Of a stretch of DNA of 64,000 bases, positions 16,340 through 61,764 are shown piece after piece. The position numbers and the translations under genes are program-made. Each line of letters starts with the position of its first letter. Positions within the stretch are counted from its first letter, which is position 1. Origin of the DNA: Methanohalophilus sp. (GTDB lineage: Archaea > Halobacteriota > Methanosarcinia > Methanosarcinales > Methanosarcinaceae); NCBI RefSeq assembly GCF_030156785.1, contig NZ_JASGLW010000011.1, positions 1 through 64,000 of the forward strand. The letters run 5' to 3'. The notes below the pieces were generated by a model, which saw only the letters and a program-made list of their open reading frames with translations, was not told where the DNA came from and searched no databases.

Positions 16340-16777
16340 TCATAATTCAGATTCGATAATCTCTTTCAAATTTGAAACCGGAAGTTTTCCGGAAACTTTC
16401 GGCTTTTCTATTACATTCCCCCTCTCATAGTCATCAAGTGCATGCCCTATAATGGGAAGCATCTGTACTTCCTCTCGCAAATAATGGAAACCTGGCCTCG
16501 GACCTCCACCCCTGCTTGCGCGACATCTTCGTTCGTCTCCCGGCGCGAAGCCTCTTTCTTTTACGAATATATGATTGCGATCAAGAGAACGCACTTCCTC
16601 AACCACTCTCTCCACAGCTTCCCGGGGACCTGTAACCATCGTACCAAAGCAGGTTTCTTTAATGGTAATATCAGTTTCAGACGCATATATTTGCATTGCA
16701 GCATCAGAAGGAAGTACACTATCAGAATCAATAACAACTATCTTAGTCACATTAACCTCATCATTTTCCGTCACCAT
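16340..16777 (-). CDS. Methanogenesis marker protein 6
   Basis: About 145 residues, recognised by KIVVIDSDSVLPSDAAMQIY, ETCFGTMVTGPREAVERV and RGFAPGDERRCRASRGGG followed by FHYLREEVQMLP. The frame opens with GTG at 16780, but ATG at 16777 has GGAGG 5 bases upstream and overlaps the mmp3 stop as ATGA, so it is chosen. The basic Arg-rich loop is unusual for such a small acidic protein and may bind a nucleotide or partner; this is inference. Confidence 0.9.
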   Translation of the reverse strand: MVTENDEVNVTKIVVIDSDSVLPSDAAMQIYASETDITIKETCFGTMVTGPREAVERVVEEVRSLDRNHIFVKERGFAPGDERRCRASRGGGPRPGFHYLREEVQMLPIIGHALDDYERGNVIEKPKVSGKLPVSNLKEIIESEL

Positions 16778-18324
16778 CACTTCCTCCGTTCCATAATGTA
16801 CATGGTATCCCCTTCTTCTAAATTTTCAAGCTTTTCAGGTTCGAGAACTTTTCCTATTATATTAGTACTGGAAAATTTTTCCCCCGTGGAACCAAAAAGA
16901 TTATCATCAACTGTTTTAACACCAATTACACCTGCTCTTTTAGCTGCCTGGTTTGTCACACCAATTTCCATGGCATTAGCCTTGTTCTTAGAAGTGTTTT
17001 CCGGGAGTATTTCCTTGTATTTCTCAGCCTCCTTATCGGCCTTAAACAGGAATGTGTTGCCGTATTTCATGATTAAATTTAGCGAGCCGACCGGCTTGAA
17101 ATTCATTGAAGTCGCATGCCTGAAGAAATCAAGTGTTTTTGGAGCAAGATTGTCATACAATTCCACTTCCACAACAGCATCTTTTGGAACACCTGTTGCT
17201 TTTACAGAACCATTTGCAAGTATCTCAATTGTTGTTTGCGGCTCAATTGAAACGATTATTGCATCATCTCCCTGGTATCCATCAGGAATCAGTTCAATAC
17301 CTCTGGATTCAAGTATCTGTTTTGCTTTTTCAAAACCAATACCCAACAATTTTAGTGGTTCCGGAGATGTCCTCACAAAAAGATTATGGCCTTTCTGTGC
17401 CATATTCACAAGTTCAATTCCATCTGTCACATGACCTATAACCGAATGCATAATGCTGGCAGTTCGATCATCTCGCGATATGAAAAACTTGCCCGTACCA
17501 TAACCCACAGTCCTTACCCAAACGCTACCTGTCTTCCTTGCCTCAAAGTTTTCATATGCACAGGCTTCACCAAGCAAACGGCTGTCTGCAATAAATGAAC
17601 TTGATGCATAATCAATATTGAAAGTCCCATCTTCTTCAATCAATGAAAAAAAATGATCTACGCCTTCAGGTGCTTCTGCATCCATTTCCACGTGAATGTA
17701 CGTGTATAACTGATCACCATCTTCAAGCTTGACACTTACATCATTAGTCAGGAGATGATCGCCTTCTTTCTCCCATTCAATAACAGGCTCGATGGAAACA
17801 ATACTATCACCTTCAGATAAACCGGAAAGGACCTGCTTCCCCGCTACAACCCTTGCGAATGCACCGCCTTCCGGAGTCCCGTAAGTTGCAGTATGAGGAG
17901 TTAAAGAAAAAATTAAATGGTAATTGGAAGGATCAAATCCTCCTGCACCAAAAAAAACCTCGTCACGATTAGCATGGATTTCTTTCCTTGTGGGCACTAG
18001 ATCTTCACTAAAAGGGCCAAAAGCCAGAGCACTCTTAGTACCCCATCTAAATGATATGCCTTCGTAATTCCTGTAATTAGTATGCCATTGTTTTGCCAAA
18101 GGAGACTTAGGGTCAATTAGTTCTATCCGAATGTCACCTTTTGTGGTAGTAAGAAGGTATTCCTTAACTTCTGAAGCCTTTACATTTTCCGTGTGTTTAA
18201 CAATTCCCACGGAAGATCCTGGGGAATACGGAGCATTCGATGACTCGATGGCATCCAACACTGTAGATCCTGCCCGAATTATGCAGTTCTCGCTGTTAAC
18301 CGTGATGTGGATTTCATCGCTCGT
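16777..18324 (-). CDS. Methanogenesis marker protein 3 with a disturbed start
   Basis: About 515 residues including the upstream extension. The family is recognised from YRNYEGISFRWGTKSALAFGP, FGAGGFDPSNYHLIFSL and a cyclophilin-like C-terminal half (VVEVELYDNLAPKTLDFFRHA). Mmp3 is a reported member of the activation complex of methyl-coenzyme M reductase. The first canonical in-frame start is GTG 18261, but coding sequence clearly continues upstream (IHITVNSENCIIRAGSTV). Upstream there is GGAGG, and ACG at 18324 follows 7 bases later in frame. An ATG at 18317 is one base out of frame: a single extra A in its AAA run would give MKIHITVNSE. Confidence 0.85.
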   Translation of the reverse strand, partial: TSDEIHITVNSENCIIRAGSTVLDAIESSNAPYSPGSSVGIVKHTENVKASEVKEYLLTTTKGDIRIELIDPKSPLAKQWHTNYRNYEGISFRWGTKSALAFGPFSEDLVPTRKEIHANRDEVFFGAGGFDPSNYHLIFSLTPHTATYGTPEGGAFARVVAGKQVLSGLSEGDSIVSIEPVIEWEKEGDHLLTNDVSVKLEDGDQLYTYIHVEMDAEAPEGVDHFFSLIEEDGTFNIDYASSSFIADSRLLGEACAYENFEARKTGSVWVRTVGYGTGKFFISRDDRTASIMHSVIGHVTDGIELVNMAQKGHNLFVRTSPEPLKLLGIGFEKAKQILESRGIELIPDGYQGDDAIIVSIEPQTTIEILANGSVKATGVPKDAVVEVELYDNLAPKTLDFFRHATSMNFKPVGSLNLIMKYGNTFLFKADKEAEKYKEILPENTSKNKANAMEIGVTNQAAKRAGVIGVKTVDDNLFGSTGEKFSSTNIIGKVLEPEKLENLEEGDTMYIMERRK

Positions 18325-18368
18325 ATAAACTCCTCCAAAGAAATATAAAGGATAACTGGCTGATAAAG

Positions 18369-22670: not shown

Positions 22671-23020
22671 ACATTTCTGAAATCTGCAAGGACATACTGC
22701 GTTATTTTGCAGGCGAATAGGTTGATTTTTCAGGATATGAACTGGATCTCTCAGAACTTTCTGATTTTGAAAGACGTGTTCTGCAATTCACACGCCTGAT
22801 CCCCTATGGTAAAACCCTTACATATTCCGAACTTGCAGAAGCAATTGGAAACCATGGGGCTGCAAGGGCAGTGGGAACAGCACTAAGAAAAAATCCATAT
22901 CCTCTGCTGATACCCTGCCACAGGGTTGTGAGAAAAGATGGCATCGGGAACTATGCCTTTGGGGGTACGGATCTTAAAAGAAAGCTGATTGAAATGGAAA
23001 AAGATGGCTGTAGATCGTGA
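22667..23020 (+). CDS. ogt: Methylated-DNA--protein-cysteine methyltransferase with an in-frame TAG (probable pyrrolysine)
   Basis: Repairs O6-alkylguanine by transfer of the alkyl group to its own cysteine. The frame from TTG 22667 (overlapping the previous TGA) reads LNISEICKDILRYFAGE, then TAG at 22718-22720 (residue 18), then VDFSGYELDLSELSDFERRV and the catalytic block with helix-turn-helix GNHGAARAVGTALRKNPYPL and active site IPCHRVVRKDG. Homology is continuous across the TAG (YFAGE-x-VDFSGYELDL is the normal family pattern), and there is no alternative ATG, GTG or TTG just downstream of it. About 117 residues, shorter than many relatives. Pyrrolysine insertion is the favoured reading; a nonsense mutation is the alternative. 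Confidence 0.85.
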
Positions 23021-25760: not shown

Positions 25761-25782
25761 TTCTATATATCGATATATAGAA
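25761..25782. promoter_or_regulatory. Perfect 22-bp palindrome upstream of the AbrB-PhoU gene
   Basis: Half-site TTCTATATAT, then CG at the centre, then the exact inverse. It lies about 20 bases before the coding region and contains TATA-like sequence, so it could combine a promoter element with an operator. The downstream AbrB-type DNA-binding domain could bind it; that is inference. Confidence 0.5.
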
Positions 25783-25802
25783 TAATTGGATGAGGGATAT
25801 AC

Positions 25803-26810
25803 ATCGAAACAAGAAAGGTTCAGCAAACAGGCGGTTCCACGTACATAATTTCCCTGCCCAAACAATGGGCTGTTAATGCCGGCATACAGGCAGGTTCAAG
25901 GGTAGCTATAAATAACCAGCCGGACGGCAGTCTTAATATTACAGCACTTGAAAGATCTTCCCAACCAAAAAAAATGAAAATGGACATAAGCAACCAAAGA
26001 GGTGCAGCACTTGTCCGGAATCTTATTGCAGCTTATGTTGCAGGATATGACATAATTGAATTAAAATCAAGTCGCATTTTGGCTGAGCAAAAAAAGGTAA
26101 TACGTGACGTATGCCACAAACTAATAGGCCCCGAAATTATTGAGGAAACTTCAAAAAGCGTACTTATTCAAGACCTGCTAAATCCTGAAGAAGTTTCCAT
26201 TAAAAAAAGTATTCGAAGGATGTTCCTTATATCCAACTCTATGCTAAAAGACGCAATTTCATCCCTCAAAAATGCTGAAAAAGACCTTGCGCTCGATGTT
26301 ATGTTAAGGGACGACGAAGTGGACAGGCTCTTTTTATTAATTTCAAAGCAATTCAGATCCCTCTTCAGGGGCACTCGCCTTGCAGACATGAGAGAAACAT
26401 CAGTGGACGAATACCACGACTTCAGGGTAGTAGCTACATCCCTTGAGCGTATAGCAGACCACGCACAAAGAATCGCTTCTGTTGCCAAAAGGCTGGATGC
26501 TCCCGTTCCTGAGGATTTGATGACATCGCTTGAGGAAGCCAGCACTGAATCGAGGATAATTGTTGAAAACGGTATCGAAGCATTATATGGGGCTGACGTT
26601 AAATTAGCAAACAAGGTGCTTAACGAGATGGGACACTTTAAAACAAAAATCGATACTTTAAACGCCAGTTTTCTGAAACTGGACAACATGGAAATGGCAA
26701 TTGGATTGGGAAGCGTGGTAGACAGTATTGAGCGTACTGCGGATTATGGAGCCAACATTGCAGAAACTGCCATTAACATGGCAATTGCTACAAAAGCTGG
26801 GGATAATTGA
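25803..26810 (+). CDS. Phosphate-uptake regulator: AbrB-type DNA-binding domain fused to PhoU
   Basis: About 335 residues. The N-terminal SpoVT/AbrB-like domain reads ETRKVQQTGGSTYIISLPKQ then WAVNAGIQAGSRVAI. Two PhoU-type helical repeats follow, with FRGTRLADMRETSVDEYHDF and ERIADHAQRIASVAK (metal-binding pattern) and again SIERTADYGANIAETAI. Archaeal PhoU proteins of this layout are thought to control phosphate transport. No ATG, GTG or TTG is present in frame between the stop at 25791 and ATG 25974, which would delete the whole DNA-binding domain. GAGG followed 7 bases later by ATC at 25803 suggests a near-cognate start. A one-base deletion in GGG would instead join ATG 25790. Confidence 0.8.
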   Translation: METRKVQQTGGSTYIISLPKQWAVNAGIQAGSRVAINNQPDGSLNITALERSSQPKKMKMDISNQRGAALVRNLIAAYVAGYDIIELKSSRILAEQKKVIRDVCHKLIGPEIIEETSKSVLIQDLLNPEEVSIKKSIRRMFLISNSMLKDAISSLKNAEKDLALDVMLRDDEVDRLFLLISKQFRSLFRGTRLADMRETSVDEYHDFRVVATSLERIADHAQRIASVAKRLDAPVPEDLMTSLEEASTESRIIVENGIEALYGADVKLANKVLNEMGHFKTKIDTLNASFLKLDNMEMAIGLGSVVDSIERTADYGANIAETAINMAIATKAGDN

Positions 26811-34530: not shown

Positions 34531-35196
34531 TTATAACCTGCTAAGGTCAAACTCAGACGTCCCTTTCGTATCATATACGATTATCCGAGAAGCCTTACAA
34601 ATGTCGGATGACAACCTTTCTTCAAGGACAACACCGGATTCAAGGAATTTCTCATATATTTTTATTGTATCCATTAATTCCACGACTTTCCTGTGGACAA
34701 CATGAACAGCGAGATTCCTTGCAGCTTCCAGAGAAATGAATTTTCCAAGACCTTCGCACTCGCACACTTCCAGCTTACCATTATTCAAGAAAAAAGGATA
34801 AGTCCGGCAAAGATACGGACGATGATCATAGATCTGGCATTCTGAATTATTGTTAAGGAAAATACAATCCATATCAGGAGTTCTTTTCAACATCCAGCCA
34901 AATGTATGAAGTATACCGTTTTTGTCAACTAACTGCCATTGTTCTTTATCAGAAAGATCTATCATTGGGATTACAAAACCATCTTTTAATGATTGTTTTT
35001 CAAGGAGAGTCATGTCTTCAGAATTTAAGAGGACTGAATTATCCCCAAAACTTCCCCTACAACATTTTCCACAACGTATACATTCAAAACCAATTGACAT
35101 TATCTGGCTGGCAATTGAATCGATATCGAGATTTTCAATGACCTCCAGCTCTTCATAAACGGAAGAAAATAGGGCAGAAGTGTTGGATTTACTCAT
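34531..35196 (-). CDS. YkgJ-family cysteine-cluster (Fe-S or zinc) protein
   Basis: 221 residues. Cluster motif FECIRCGKCCRGSFGDN at the N-terminus, then CQIYDHRPYLCRTYPFF and KLEVCECEG: the conserved CxxCxxCC plus C-x8-C pattern of the YkgJ/UPF0153 family, whose biochemical role is unknown. The gene starts within the end of the TrkA-DHH gene (8-base overlap), so the two are co-transcribed. Confidence 0.85.
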   Translation of the reverse strand: MSKSNTSALFSSVYEELEVIENLDIDSIASQIMSIGFECIRCGKCCRGSFGDNSVLLNSEDMTLLEKQSLKDGFVIPMIDLSDKEQWQLVDKNGILHTFGWMLKRTPDMDCIFLNNNSECQIYDHRPYLCRTYPFFLNNGKLEVCECEGLGKFISLEAARNLAVHVVHRKVVELMDTIKIYEKFLESGVVLEERLSSDICKASRIIVYDTKGTSEFDLSRL

Positions 35197-36658
35197 CCAG
35201 TTCCTCTACACCAACCGCATTCAGGAATTTCTTGACTACCGCCTCATTCACAAGGCGTAGGAGAGTCTGGCGATCCTTTATCCCGCTGAAGACACCAAGC
35301 GGGATCTGGGCAGCTGCAGCAGTGCTGTGACCCCCTGCTGAATTTTCACCAAATGCTTTCTTCAGAACTTCACCCAGATTTATCCGAATGTCATTGCTCC
35401 TGCCGGATATGTAAATCCACTCATCCGAAACACCGAAAACAATGGTTGTAAAAATACCTTCCAGATTCAGCAAATATTCCGCTGCCTGTGGCAGGGTATC
35501 CCTGTCCCTGATGGTCCCCACATTTGAAAGGAGATAGCTTCCAAAAACCTGCCGGTTCTTGATTGCTTCCCCGAGAACATCAAGAGTTTCAATAGACATT
35601 GACGGTCTTTCAAGTTGCTCCAAAATCTCATGATCTGCCAGAGGATACAGATAAGAAGCTGCCGAAAGATCGGCTGATTCGGTATTCCTCTTAAAATCCA
35701 TTGTATCTGTCCGGATACCATAAAGAAGAGCTGTAGAAAGTACACTATCTATTTCAATATTAAGCTCCTGGAGGTATTTTGTCATGATAGTGGACGTGGC
35801 TCCTACATTCGGGCGAATATCAACAAAATCCGCATCCACTTCAACATCACCAACCGGGTGATGATCAAATATTAGTCCGACATGTTGCCCTTCTTCCAAC
35901 ATGTTATTCGCACCGGGTACAGCACAATCCACAAGGGCAAGCTCATCAAATTCCTCAATGGAATGATTTTCCATCCTATGAAGTTCAATGCCTAACAGAT
36001 TTACAAATGCCTTGTTTTCTTGATGGCCGATTTCACCATGATACAAAATTGTGGCTTGTACTTCATGATGCTCCGCAATTTTTTGAAGGGCAAGTGCACT
36101 GGCCATTGCATCCGGATCAGGGTTATCATGAACAATAATTCCAAGCTTTTTATGTGCACGTTTTTTGAGCCAGCCTGACAGTTTGCTTCCAAGCATCATT
36201 GATTCAGCCCTCCCAAGGGATATTGCAATCGATTTGGAAACAATCTTGGAGGGCACGAATACAAAGTTTGCACCCAGCTTCTCCATTTCCTGTTTATTGA
36301 TAATGTCTGATGATCTGGCTATACAATAAGTGTCCGGCCCGAACAGATCCCTAGCATTTTTGATTGCCTTTTTATTGGCATCATTATCAGAACTTACTAC
36401 CAGGACTCCACTCAATTTTTTACCAACGAATTGTTTGAGTGTCTTAAGGTCTGCAATATCACCTTCTGTAGCTTCATACGCTTCTTCGCGAAGGGTCTCA
36501 ACCTTTTGAGGGTCCTTATCAACGATAATGAGATCTTTTCCCATTTCTCGCAGTTCTTTAGCAATTGCAAAGCCTATACTTCCGCTTCCAAGAATAAGAT
36601 AAACGGGTTTAAAACGTGTCTTTTCAGGAGCTTCTGAATCATTTGATCCGGCGGGTAT
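35189..36658 (-). CDS. TrkA-N domain - DHH phosphoesterase fusion protein
   Basis: About 489 residues. A Rossmann NAD-binding TrkA-N domain (VYLILGSGSIGFAIAKELRE, MGKDLIIVDKDPQKVETL, then ATEGDIADLKTLKQFVG) is fused to a DHH/DHHA1 phosphoesterase: IIVHDNPDPDAMASALALQK, LVDCAVPGANN, FDHHPVGDVEVDADF and the C-terminal GGHSTAAAAQIP. The first ATG in frame, 36544, lies inside the Rossmann domain after its glycine loop. Upstream coding sequence has no ATG, GTG or TTG before the TAG at about 36690. GGAGG followed 8 bases later by ATA at 36658 is the best start. A small indel joining the ATG right after the GGAGG is an alternative. Confidence 0.8.
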   Translation of the reverse strand: MPAGSNDSEAPEKTRFKPVYLILGSGSIGFAIAKELREMGKDLIIVDKDPQKVETLREEAYEATEGDIADLKTLKQFVGKKLSGVLVVSSDNDANKKAIKNARDLFGPDTYCIARSSDIINKQEMEKLGANFVFVPSKIVSKSIAISLGRAESMMLGSKLSGWLKKRAHKKLGIIVHDNPDPDAMASALALQKIAEHHEVQATILYHGEIGHQENKAFVNLLGIELHRMENHSIEEFDELALVDCAVPGANNMLEEGQHVGLIFDHHPVGDVEVDADFVDIRPNVGATSTIMTKYLQELNIEIDSVLSTALLYGIRTDTMDFKRNTESADLSAASYLYPLADHEILEQLERPSMSIETLDVLGEAIKNRQVFGSYLLSNVGTIRDRDTLPQAAEYLLNLEGIFTTIVFGVSDEWIYISGRSNDIRINLGEVLKKAFGENSAGGHSTAAAAQIPLGVFSGIKDRQTLLRLVNEAVVKKFLNAVGVEELDE

Positions 36659-36783
36659 AAACCATACCTCCCTGCTACAATAGAAATACTATCTGATATT
36701 AAGATATTTTGGAGAAACTATTTGAAGGAGAGAATGTCAAACAATAAATAATAATAGCAACAGAAGATGAATACGGGGTTATC

Positions 36784-39865: not shown

Positions 39866-40234
39866 ATGACTCTTCCACAAAAATGTCCCCTTGGCAACAC
39901 TGACGGATGCAGAGGCAGGGATTGCCATCTGTACCACATCGACTGGAGAACCGGCGAGGAAAACTGTTCTATCGGATATCGCTATACTCACAAGACAAAA
40001 GGGTCTTCCCACACCATTGAAGATACATATGCAAGGGATGTAAAACTTCGCAAAATGGAAGCTGCAAGAAAAAGAACAGAAGTTGTGGAAGAAACAGCCA
40101 AAGACACTTCAAACTCTAACATAGATGAAGAACCCCCGGTTTCCAAAGAAGGGGAAAAAACATCAAAACTTGATTCCCTGATGGACGAACTCCCCGAAAA
40201 CTACGAAGAGGAGTTCTGGGCGAATGAAAGTTGA
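39866..40234 (+). CDS. Cysteine-containing small protein of unknown function
   Basis: 122 residues. The N-terminal third has five cysteines (CPLGNTDGCRGRDCHLYHID, then GEENCSIGYRY), suggesting a metal or Fe-S site. The rest is a charged, probably disordered tail rich in Glu, Lys, Thr and Ser. No family recognised. It lies between prs and the DNA glycosylase gene, overlapping the latter by 11 bases. Confidence 0.65.
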   Translation: MTLPQKCPLGNTDGCRGRDCHLYHIDWRTGEENCSIGYRYTHKTKGSSHTIEDTYARDVKLRKMEAARKRTEVVEETAKDTSNSNIDEEPPVSKEGEKTSKLDSLMDELPENYEEEFWANES

Positions 40235-40889
40235 AAAACCTGAGAAATATAATCACAGATCTCTTGTAGTCGGGATCTATAACAAACTTTTTGATGAATT
40301 CGGGAAACAGAATTGGTGGCCTGCCGAAACTCCCTTTGAAGTAGTTGTTGGTGCTCTGCTTACGCAGCAAACCAAATGGCAGAATGTGGAAGAGGCCATC
40401 AAAAATCTTAAGCAAAGGGGTCTGATGGATGCGGAAAGTATTGCATCTTCAGATATTGAATTGCTGGAAGAAACTATTTATTGCACCGGTTTTTACCGCC
40501 AGAAAGCCAAACGTTTAAAGCAAATATCTACTTTTTTTTCGGAAAATAAGATGGAAGAAGTGTTTTCTCTCCCTCTGGACGAACTCCGCAACACTCTCCT
40601 TTCACTCAACGGCGTGGGACCGGAAACCGCAGACAGCATTATACTTTATGCCGCCAACAGACAAAAGTTTGTTATAGATGTTTATACCAAGAGAATTATG
40701 AAATGTCTTGGCATTGAAGGAAATTATTCGCAACTACAGGAGTTGTTTGAAAAGAATCTTCCGGATGATGTCGACGTCTACAAGGAATACCACGCTTTGA
40801 TTGTGGAATACGCAAAGAAATATTGCGTTAAGAAAAAATGCGATATATGTCCCCTTACCGGAGAATTCAATGGACCGGATTACCTATGA
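40224..40889 (+). CDS. HhH-GPD DNA glycosylase, endonuclease III superfamily
   Basis: 221 residues. Base-excision-repair glycosylase. The motifs are ETPFEVVVGALLTQQTKWQN, the helix-hairpin-helix LNGVGPETADSIILYAANRQ and the catalytic Asp in FVIDVYTKRIMK. The position of the endonuclease III lysine in the hairpin is Glu here, so a monofunctional glycosylase like MagIII is more likely than a lyase. The C-terminal cluster has only three cysteines (YCVKKKCDICPL) and lacks the fourth, so an Fe-S cluster is doubtful. The substrate may be an alkylated base; this is inferred. Confidence 0.88.
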   Translation: MKVEKPEKYNHRSLVVGIYNKLFDEFGKQNWWPAETPFEVVVGALLTQQTKWQNVEEAIKNLKQRGLMDAESIASSDIELLEETIYCTGFYRQKAKRLKQISTFFSENKMEEVFSLPLDELRNTLLSLNGVGPETADSIILYAANRQKFVIDVYTKRIMKCLGIEGNYSQLQELFEKNLPDDVDVYKEYHALIVEYAKKYCVKKKCDICPLTGEFNGPDYL

Positions 40890-61135: not shown

Positions 61136-61764
61136 CAAATAGACCGCATTTTGATGCCTGGGAAGAAGAACACAGACACGTGCGCTGGACAGAAGCACGT
61201 AATCTACCTGAAATCAAAGGTCTGCTTTAGGATAATTCGAGGATTCTGGACCTGGGATGCGGCAAGGGGAGATACTGTCTTCCCCTTTCAAAAAAATATG
61301 AGATATTCGGAACAGATGTTTCCATTACCGCCTTGGGAAAATTGGAAAAAAAAGCAGAAGACAGGAACATTTCGCTGCCCCTGTTTCACTCAAGTGCCAC
61401 ACATATTCCCTTCAGAGATGAATCCTTCGACGCGGTGCTTTGCACAGGAGTCCTGCAACATCTTCTGGAAAACGAAAGAAAAGAAACGGCAGATGAAATC
61501 ACGCGGGTTCTCAAGCCGGAAGGTATCCTTTTTTTAGAAGCCTTTGGGAGAGATGATTTCCGCTACGGTGGAGATGAAATTGAACCTCACACCTTTGCCA
61601 GGAAAAATGGAATAATTTACCACTATTTTACAAAAGATGAACTTAAAGAACTGTTTTGGAGTTTTGAGTATATTGATTTTAAGGAAGAAAAAAAGGAAAA
61701 GATTTTTCATGGGAAGAGATATTCCCGCCATTCAATTTTCTTTGTTGCAATGAAAAATGCTTAA
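61132..61764 (+). CDS. SAM-dependent methyltransferase with an in-frame TAG (probable pyrrolysine)
   Basis: 210 residues from ATG 61132, which overlaps the lysS TGA as ATGA. Reads [20 protein letters not shown] and [12 protein letters not shown], then TAG at 61228-61230 (residue 33), then [20 protein letters not shown] with the SAM loop, [19 protein letters not shown] and [20 protein letters not shown]. The TAG lies just before the SAM loop and nothing else is broken. Starting instead at the downstream ATG 61333 would lose the SAM site. The substrate is unknown; linkage to lysS could suggest tRNA or small-molecule methylation. Pyrrolysine insertion is favoured. Confidence 0.85.

Follow-up and report, generated by a model that had tools for sequence, protein, structure and literature searches.

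The window analysed here, a stretch of 64,000 nucleotides from a Methanohalophilus genome, carries on its plus strand a gene of 335 codons plus stop (25803-26810) for a regulator of the archaeal AbrB-PhoU type (SpoVT/AbrB plus PhoU). An ortholog of this gene was identified in 93 of 111 genomes of the family. The N-terminal part is an AbrB/MazE-like DNA-binding domain (25821-25934; PF04014, residues 10-47 of the frame counted from 25794), followed by two PhoU domains at 26211-26480 and 26538-26768 (both plus strand, PF01895). The frame runs from 25794 to 26810, and after the stop codon TGA at 25791-25793 it reads GGG ATA TAC ATC GAA ACA AGA AAG GTT CAG CAA ACA GGC GGT. The first ATG, GTG or TTG within this frame is ATG 25974, located past the AbrB domain, so that a protein initiated there would lose this domain wholly. 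The original prediction stated that no canonical start lies between TGA 25791 and ATG 25974, that an AbrB domain is encoded ahead of ATG 25974, and that GAGG precedes ATC 25803 by 7 bases. On the window sequence no canonical codon was found in that interval, the PF04014 match scored 27.5 bits against a cutoff of 24.7, and GAGG (25792-25795) was located exactly 7 bases upstream of ATC 25803. As judged from sequence, the observation is correct in each checkable detail, and it extends far beyond the window.

By comparison with orthologs, ATC at 25803-25805 was assigned as the near-cognate start codon, presumably read as Met. The Shine-Dalgarno (SD) element GAGGGAT (25792-25798, plus strand) is located 5-11 bases upstream of this codon, and its columns (-11 to -5) are conserved among the 93 orthologs with an information content of 0.71-1.83 bits, while the bases from -4 to -1 are hypervariable (0.16-0.37 bits). 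The 3' tail of 16S rRNA was absent from the assembly of the window, and the tail of relatives, ending in GGATCACCTCCT and present in all five relatives tested, was used as the anti-SD sequence. The duplex energy was estimated to be -7.7 kcal/mol for AbrB-PhoU, and -9.3 and -11.4 kcal/mol for two companion genes described below, mmp3 and TrkA-DHH. Canonically started genes of the window, 29 of them picked by hand, gave a mean of -4.9 kcal/mol (range, +2.7 to -12.2), four of the 29 having an SD stronger than -8.5. Among the AbrB-PhoU orthologs, the mean SD energy was -7.13 with ATA, -6.65 with ATC and -5.8 with ATG, but the difference is slight and is not taken to show that a weaker start codon is balanced by a stronger SD.

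A TATA-box-like sequence, CTATATA, is located at 25763-25769 (plus strand), at -40 from the start codon. Of the 93 orthologs, 59 have a TATA-like match in the final 60 bases upstream, and in 50 of these 59 it is positioned between -38 and -45. This position suggests that the AbrB-PhoU leader may be short, roughly 10-20 bases. Conserved RNA structure was not detected by RNAalifold within 84 distinct 48-base leaders.

For comparison of the codon aligned with 25803, a total of 111 Methanosarcinaceae genomes, including that of the window, were searched, among which 107 gave some match and four gave none. By setting the criterion at 55% identity or more over 166 residues, 93 genomes were accepted as carrying an ortholog, and 14 carried matches at the paralog level only; loci L037-L050, some of which duplicate genomes already included, were excluded from the 93. 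The codon was ATA in 70, ATC in 15 and ATG in eight orthologs, these counts being non-independent since the species are related, and none of the 93 carried ATT, GTG or TTG. A codon other than AUG, GUG or UUG is thus kept across species at a fixed spacing from the SD in 85 of the 93 orthologs, spanning 11 genera, and the comparison of start codons in relatives, named in the original prediction as a check, gave a family-wide result. The eight ATG codons belong to two divergent genera, g9 and g10 (six of six genomes), and to Methanococcoides (g3; two of 11 genomes). Other genus labels are g5 for Methanolobus and g6 for Methanohalobium, together with g1 and g8, which we take to be Methanohalophilus and Methanosarcina.

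Outside the near-cognate group, the alignment placed ATG in the same column in 13 genomes, namely all five of family f2, all three of f3, the one readable genome of f4, and all four that were read of g9 and g10, and also in three paralogs. ATG was hence found at this column in three of four other families. In family f5, three of three genomes lacked ATG at this column, and the column was not readable in genome G059; the pattern of a conserved near-cognate start with its position set by a homologous AUG was therefore found except with respect to f5. The AbrB-PhoU proteins of f3, f4 and f5 may be paralogs, because their identity is only 33-41%. On a tree of 30 full-length orthologs, four changes were needed among ATA, ATC and ATG.

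The ATC at 25803 was taken as the start position because the homologous codon is ATG in the 13 genomes and three paralogs. In genome G087, a TAA stop is located immediately upstream of its ATA. Among the 85 near-cognate orthologs, 58 are free of any canonical codon in the interval from codon 1 back to the nearest upstream stop, and in 40 of these 58 the stop is within five codons. In-frame canonical codons are present upstream in 24 of the 85, at a distance of two or three codons in 15 of them; these include six genomes of Methanohalophilus, the genus of the window, in which an ATG two codons upstream overlaps the SD (for example, ATGGATATA). Five orthologs had no resolved upstream stop. Species with an upstream in-frame canonical codon could use that codon, an option not open to the window and its relative G005.

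The usage of codons also separates codon 1 from internal isoleucine codons. Within the 30 full-length orthologs, internal isoleucine is encoded by ATA 459, ATT 356 and ATC 288 times, and ATT is the most frequent of the three at columns 15 and 16 (97 of 165). As against 356 of 1103 internal codons, ATT occupies codon 1 in none of the 85 near-cognate orthologs, again in counts over related and hence non-independent species, and codon 1 of AbrB-PhoU does not behave as isoleucine. Since residues 2-20 are almost invariant in the 93 orthologs while their synonymous positions vary widely, the N-terminus appears to be made. The comparison of sequences altogether establishes the start position, the codon set, the conservation of the codon and the SD, and a start site at 25803 is well supported.

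The original prediction listed three window genes in which a near-cognate codon follows a strong ribosome-binding site, and all three were confirmed in the window (ATC for AbrB-PhoU, ACG 18324 for mmp3 and ATA 36658 for TrkA-DHH), while in relatives the ACG of mmp3 is less certain (see below). The TrkA-DHH gene, with matches to TrkA and DHH-type domains, is located on the minus strand (coding part 35189-36658), with a putative start codon ATA at 36656-36658 assigned by comparison of 30 loci and a ribosome-binding site GGGAGGT at 36666-36672; the first canonical codon is the 49th of the frame. The 30 loci were found among 40 genomes searched, including that of the window, and the codons were read by eye. 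The SD-spaced codon was ATT in 10 loci, ATA in eight, ATC in three, ATG in four, TTG in four and unclear in one. Near-cognate starts (ATA, ATT or ATC) were accordingly read in 21 of the 30 loci, and 29 of the 30 carry AUG or a codon one base from AUG at a single SD-spaced position; three of the 21 near-cognate loci (in genomes G005, G011 and G019) have in addition a canonical codon two or five codons upstream. All four loci of f2 and both loci of f5 are among the ATA and ATC cases, and because of these loci the near-cognate state of TrkA-DHH may predate Methanosarcinaceae.

AUU is the commonest TrkA-DHH start (10 of 30: loci L053-L057, L062, L066, L067, L069 and L072) and is absent from all 93 AbrB-PhoU orthologs. 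The set of near-cognate codons that is tolerated seems to differ between the two genes.

The mmp3 gene, identified by a match to TIGR03268 with 568.9 bits, is also located on the minus strand (coding part 16777-18324). Its putative start codon, assigned from family loci, is ACG at 18322-18324, preceded by a ribosome-binding site GGAGG at 18332-18336, and the frame reaches a canonical codon only at its 43rd position. Among 24 family loci, the SD-spaced codon was ACG in 19, CTG or ATC in two, GTG in one, ATG in one and unclear in one; in other families, GTG was found at the SD-spaced position in six of six loci. An upstream canonical codon is absent from only five of the 19 ACG loci, those of the window and of genomes G005, G011, G012 and G024. 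The other 14 carry one in frame, mostly two to six codons away, and for this reason the ACG is less certain in the relatives; in four of the 19, ATT is located directly upstream of ACG and is SD-spaced as well. By these comparisons, initiation at ACG is well supported for the window and likely for the other loci.

Further cases were looked for by a synteny survey of 175 kb of G005, which retained 143 conserved reading frames; a loose rule flagged 43 of them. AbrB-PhoU and mmp3 were clear among the flagged frames, and the other 41 were read codon by codon. Most of these 41 had a plausibly placed canonical start, and some of the flagged frames were stop-interrupted frames, antisense or off-frame stretches, or a tRNA. 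In G005 the rule overlooked TrkA-DHH, since its ATA has a GTG two codons upstream; the rule misses genes with an upstream canonical codon, and the survey therefore gives a lower bound. A similar rule applied to the window flagged all three genes, together with many antisense shadows and other frames, nine of which were read. A possible fourth near-cognate start was noted in G005 (C3; 118148-118975 on the minus strand of the joined stretch from C3:35001), where the frame reads ATC AGA ATT AGC as against ATG AGA ATA AGT in genome G007, but it has no clear SD and is doubtful.

In-frame TAG codons were observed in the course of this reading. One is located at 22718-22720 of the window (...ILRYFAGE-TAG-VDFSGYELD...) within a DNA-methyltransferase-like frame of the ogt type, for which G005 has AAA and the others a sense codon. 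Pyrrolysine read-through is known in Methanosarcinaceae, and this TAG could represent either such read-through or a broken gene. Another is located at 61228-61230 within a SAM-methyltransferase-like frame (CGG in G005), and G005 itself carries a TAG (GIYN-TAG-LLNEFGK) in a frame at 25977-26567 of the joined stretch on the minus strand, for which the counterpart frame of the window (40182-40889) has AAA (GIYNKLFDEFGK). Judging from this last pair, in-frame TAG codons come and go among close relatives.

With respect to the mechanism, we consider it probable that ATC 25803 is an SD-dependent start recognized by a mismatched initiator Met-tRNA, that AUA and AUC have been selected for keeping expression low and sensitive to initiation stringency, and that TrkA-DHH and mmp3 behave alike. 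The SD at 25792-25798 would position the 30S subunit so that the initiator Met-tRNA (anticodon CAU) pairs with AUC except at the third position, giving a protein that begins with Met-Glu-Thr-Arg-Lys. The ancestral start was probably ATG, converted within Methanosarcinaceae to ATA and later, in some lineages, to ATC, and AUA and AUC would have been retained by selection. Inefficient initiation behind a strong SD most likely keeps the level of this DNA-binding regulator low, and its output may depend on initiation stringency as affected by aIF1 and the growth state; TrkA-DHH (AUA, AUU or AUC) and mmp3 (ACG) would follow the same mode of initiation. From the pattern in relatives we infer the ancestral ATG, the use of the initiator Met-tRNA, the low yield and the regulation, with low and possibly tunable expression as the presumable purpose of the near-cognate start. 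A weak start by itself fails to explain why ATT, GTG and TTG are avoided at AbrB-PhoU. A study of Sulfolobus indicates that aIF1 favors discrimination against non-canonical starts (PMC6237735). The gene for aIF1 (SUI1) was found as a separate gene in all 20 genomes tested, including that of the window; autoregulation of the IF3 or aIF1 type, as for infC, does not apply here, the gene being AbrB-PhoU and aIF1 being encoded elsewhere.

The main rival explanation keeps the same start but regards it as an unregulated relic that is tolerated, the strong SD compensating for the codon and a low demand for the protein lifting the pressure toward AUG. It has a smaller yet appreciable chance of being correct. 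In prokaryotes non-AUG starts are associated with stronger SDs, as here, an association interpreted there as compensation (PMC5622118), and besides the strong SDs the ATG in two Methanococcoides genomes is in agreement with this explanation. ATG within the near-cognate genera is, however, confined to these two of 11 genomes of a single genus. The wide variation at nearby synonymous positions implies that the time was ample for a one-base transition to ATG, and the third base does change, as the ATC label requires three changes on the 30-taxon tree. The complete lack of ATT, GTG and TTG in the 93 orthologs also argues against a relic.

A start a little ahead of 25803, whether at ATA 25797 or at a different near-cognate codon, would give a longer protein, and in many orthologs ATA or ATT is indeed present two codons upstream, overlapping the SD. 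In the window, however, GAGG is only 1 base apart from ATA 25797; codon -1 shows no regularity in the amino acid it would encode, and G087 has the stop TAA there; and the more distant relatives carry ATG at the 25803 column. This upstream start, which is very unlikely, was rejected on the basis of the stops and the hypervariable codons just upstream. Reading of the codon by an initiator tRNA of its own, or after editing, is improbable to a similar degree. It would account for AUA and AUC being the sole non-AUG codons at AbrB-PhoU, but the ACG and AUU of the other genes would require more such tRNAs. Among 49 tRNA matches in G007, 42 were resolved by ARAGORN and no special tRNA was found among these; its resolved Met and Ile tRNA genes carry CAU or GAU, and none carries UAU. 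Of the remaining seven matches, three gave no resolved tRNA and four have scores that point to probable further copies of the Ala and Cys genes. The resolved Met and Ile genes of G007 include two identical ones with what we take to be the look of an archaeal initiator.

The original prediction named two findings that would speak against it, and both were tested. The first is that only a short form lacking the AbrB domain is made from ATG 25974, which is the first canonical codon of the frame in the window. The near invariance of residues 2-20 despite variable synonymous positions contradicts such a product, and so does the shifting place of the next canonical codon, which is found at +5, +15, +17, +25 or elsewhere depending on the ortholog, as far as the available stretches reach; a short form is thus highly improbable. 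The second is a miscount of the GGG at 25794-25796, where one base fewer would bring ATG 25790 in frame, and the probability of such a sequencing or assembly error is negligible and the idea was rejected, since the base run is common to relatives: G005, 88% identical, reads GTGAGGGATTAACATCGAAACA, and 85 of the 93 orthologs lack a canonical codon at this column.

The near-cognate start of AbrB-PhoU, with its proposed selection for low expression, has parallels in bacteria. In Escherichia coli, infC and pcnB start with AUU, and infC is under autoregulation by IF3. In these, as proposed here, poor initiation restricts a protein that is regulatory or may do harm, but AbrB-PhoU, TrkA-DHH and mmp3 all lack an annotation as initiation factor. 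The experimentally tested case closest to the present one is ccpN of Staphylococcus aureus; in this species and its relatives, near-cognate starts with strong SDs are described for ccpN (AUA), cvfC1 (AUU) and infC (AUA) (PMC13009471). In poor medium, the yield of the ccpN, cvfC1 and citZ reporters was about 10% of that with AUG, and for ccpN it reached as much as 30% when the medium was rich (PMC13009471). The starts of ccpN and cvfC1 resemble the present case in being conserved between species and accompanied by a strong SD, and ccpN encodes a transcriptional regulator (repressor), as does AbrB-PhoU. The differences are that initiation in S. aureus is of the bacterial IF3-based type as against aIF1, aIF1A and aIF2 here, that the genes are unrelated by name, that the codon set here includes AUC and ACG, and that the present case was drawn from sequence comparison.

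In a comparison of 36 genome triplets, only two of 61,358 ancestral AUG starts had changed to CUG and one to AUU, and the accessible part lists no change to AUA, AUC or ACG (PMC5622118). That work, so far as available, concerns essentially GUG and UUG, whereas here most members of a family carry AUA or AUC at one gene. In a Ribo-seq study of Methanosarcina mazei, CTG is mentioned for small ORFs, and the term ATA is absent from the main text (PMC11456600). No report of conserved AUA, AUC or ACG starts in archaea was found in the literature searched, mostly without subscription papers, nor in the accessible parts of PMC8211752, PMC4350412, PMC11456600, PMC7531240 and PMC6237735. Conserved near-cognate starts are known in bacteria; their occurrence in archaea, throughout a family and with other codons, appears to be new.

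A start caller limited to ATG, GTG and TTG would place the AbrB-PhoU start too far downstream, with the DNA-binding domain being lost in part or wholly. The AUA or AUC start in most species examined suggests that the output of AbrB-PhoU is held down, or can be adjusted, as translation begins, and a conserved non-AUG start of this kind provides a natural test of start-codon choice by archaeal ribosomes. As a more speculative extension, which we regard as unlikely on balance, the near-cognate starts of AbrB-PhoU, TrkA-DHH and mmp3 might constitute a translational regulon of Methanosarcinaceae, in part of the whole order. If so, the output of this regulon would move jointly with start-codon stringency, as set by the level or activity of aIF1, the initiator tRNA and the growth state, and it would represent an archaeal counterpart to the IF3- and eIF1-sensitive genes.
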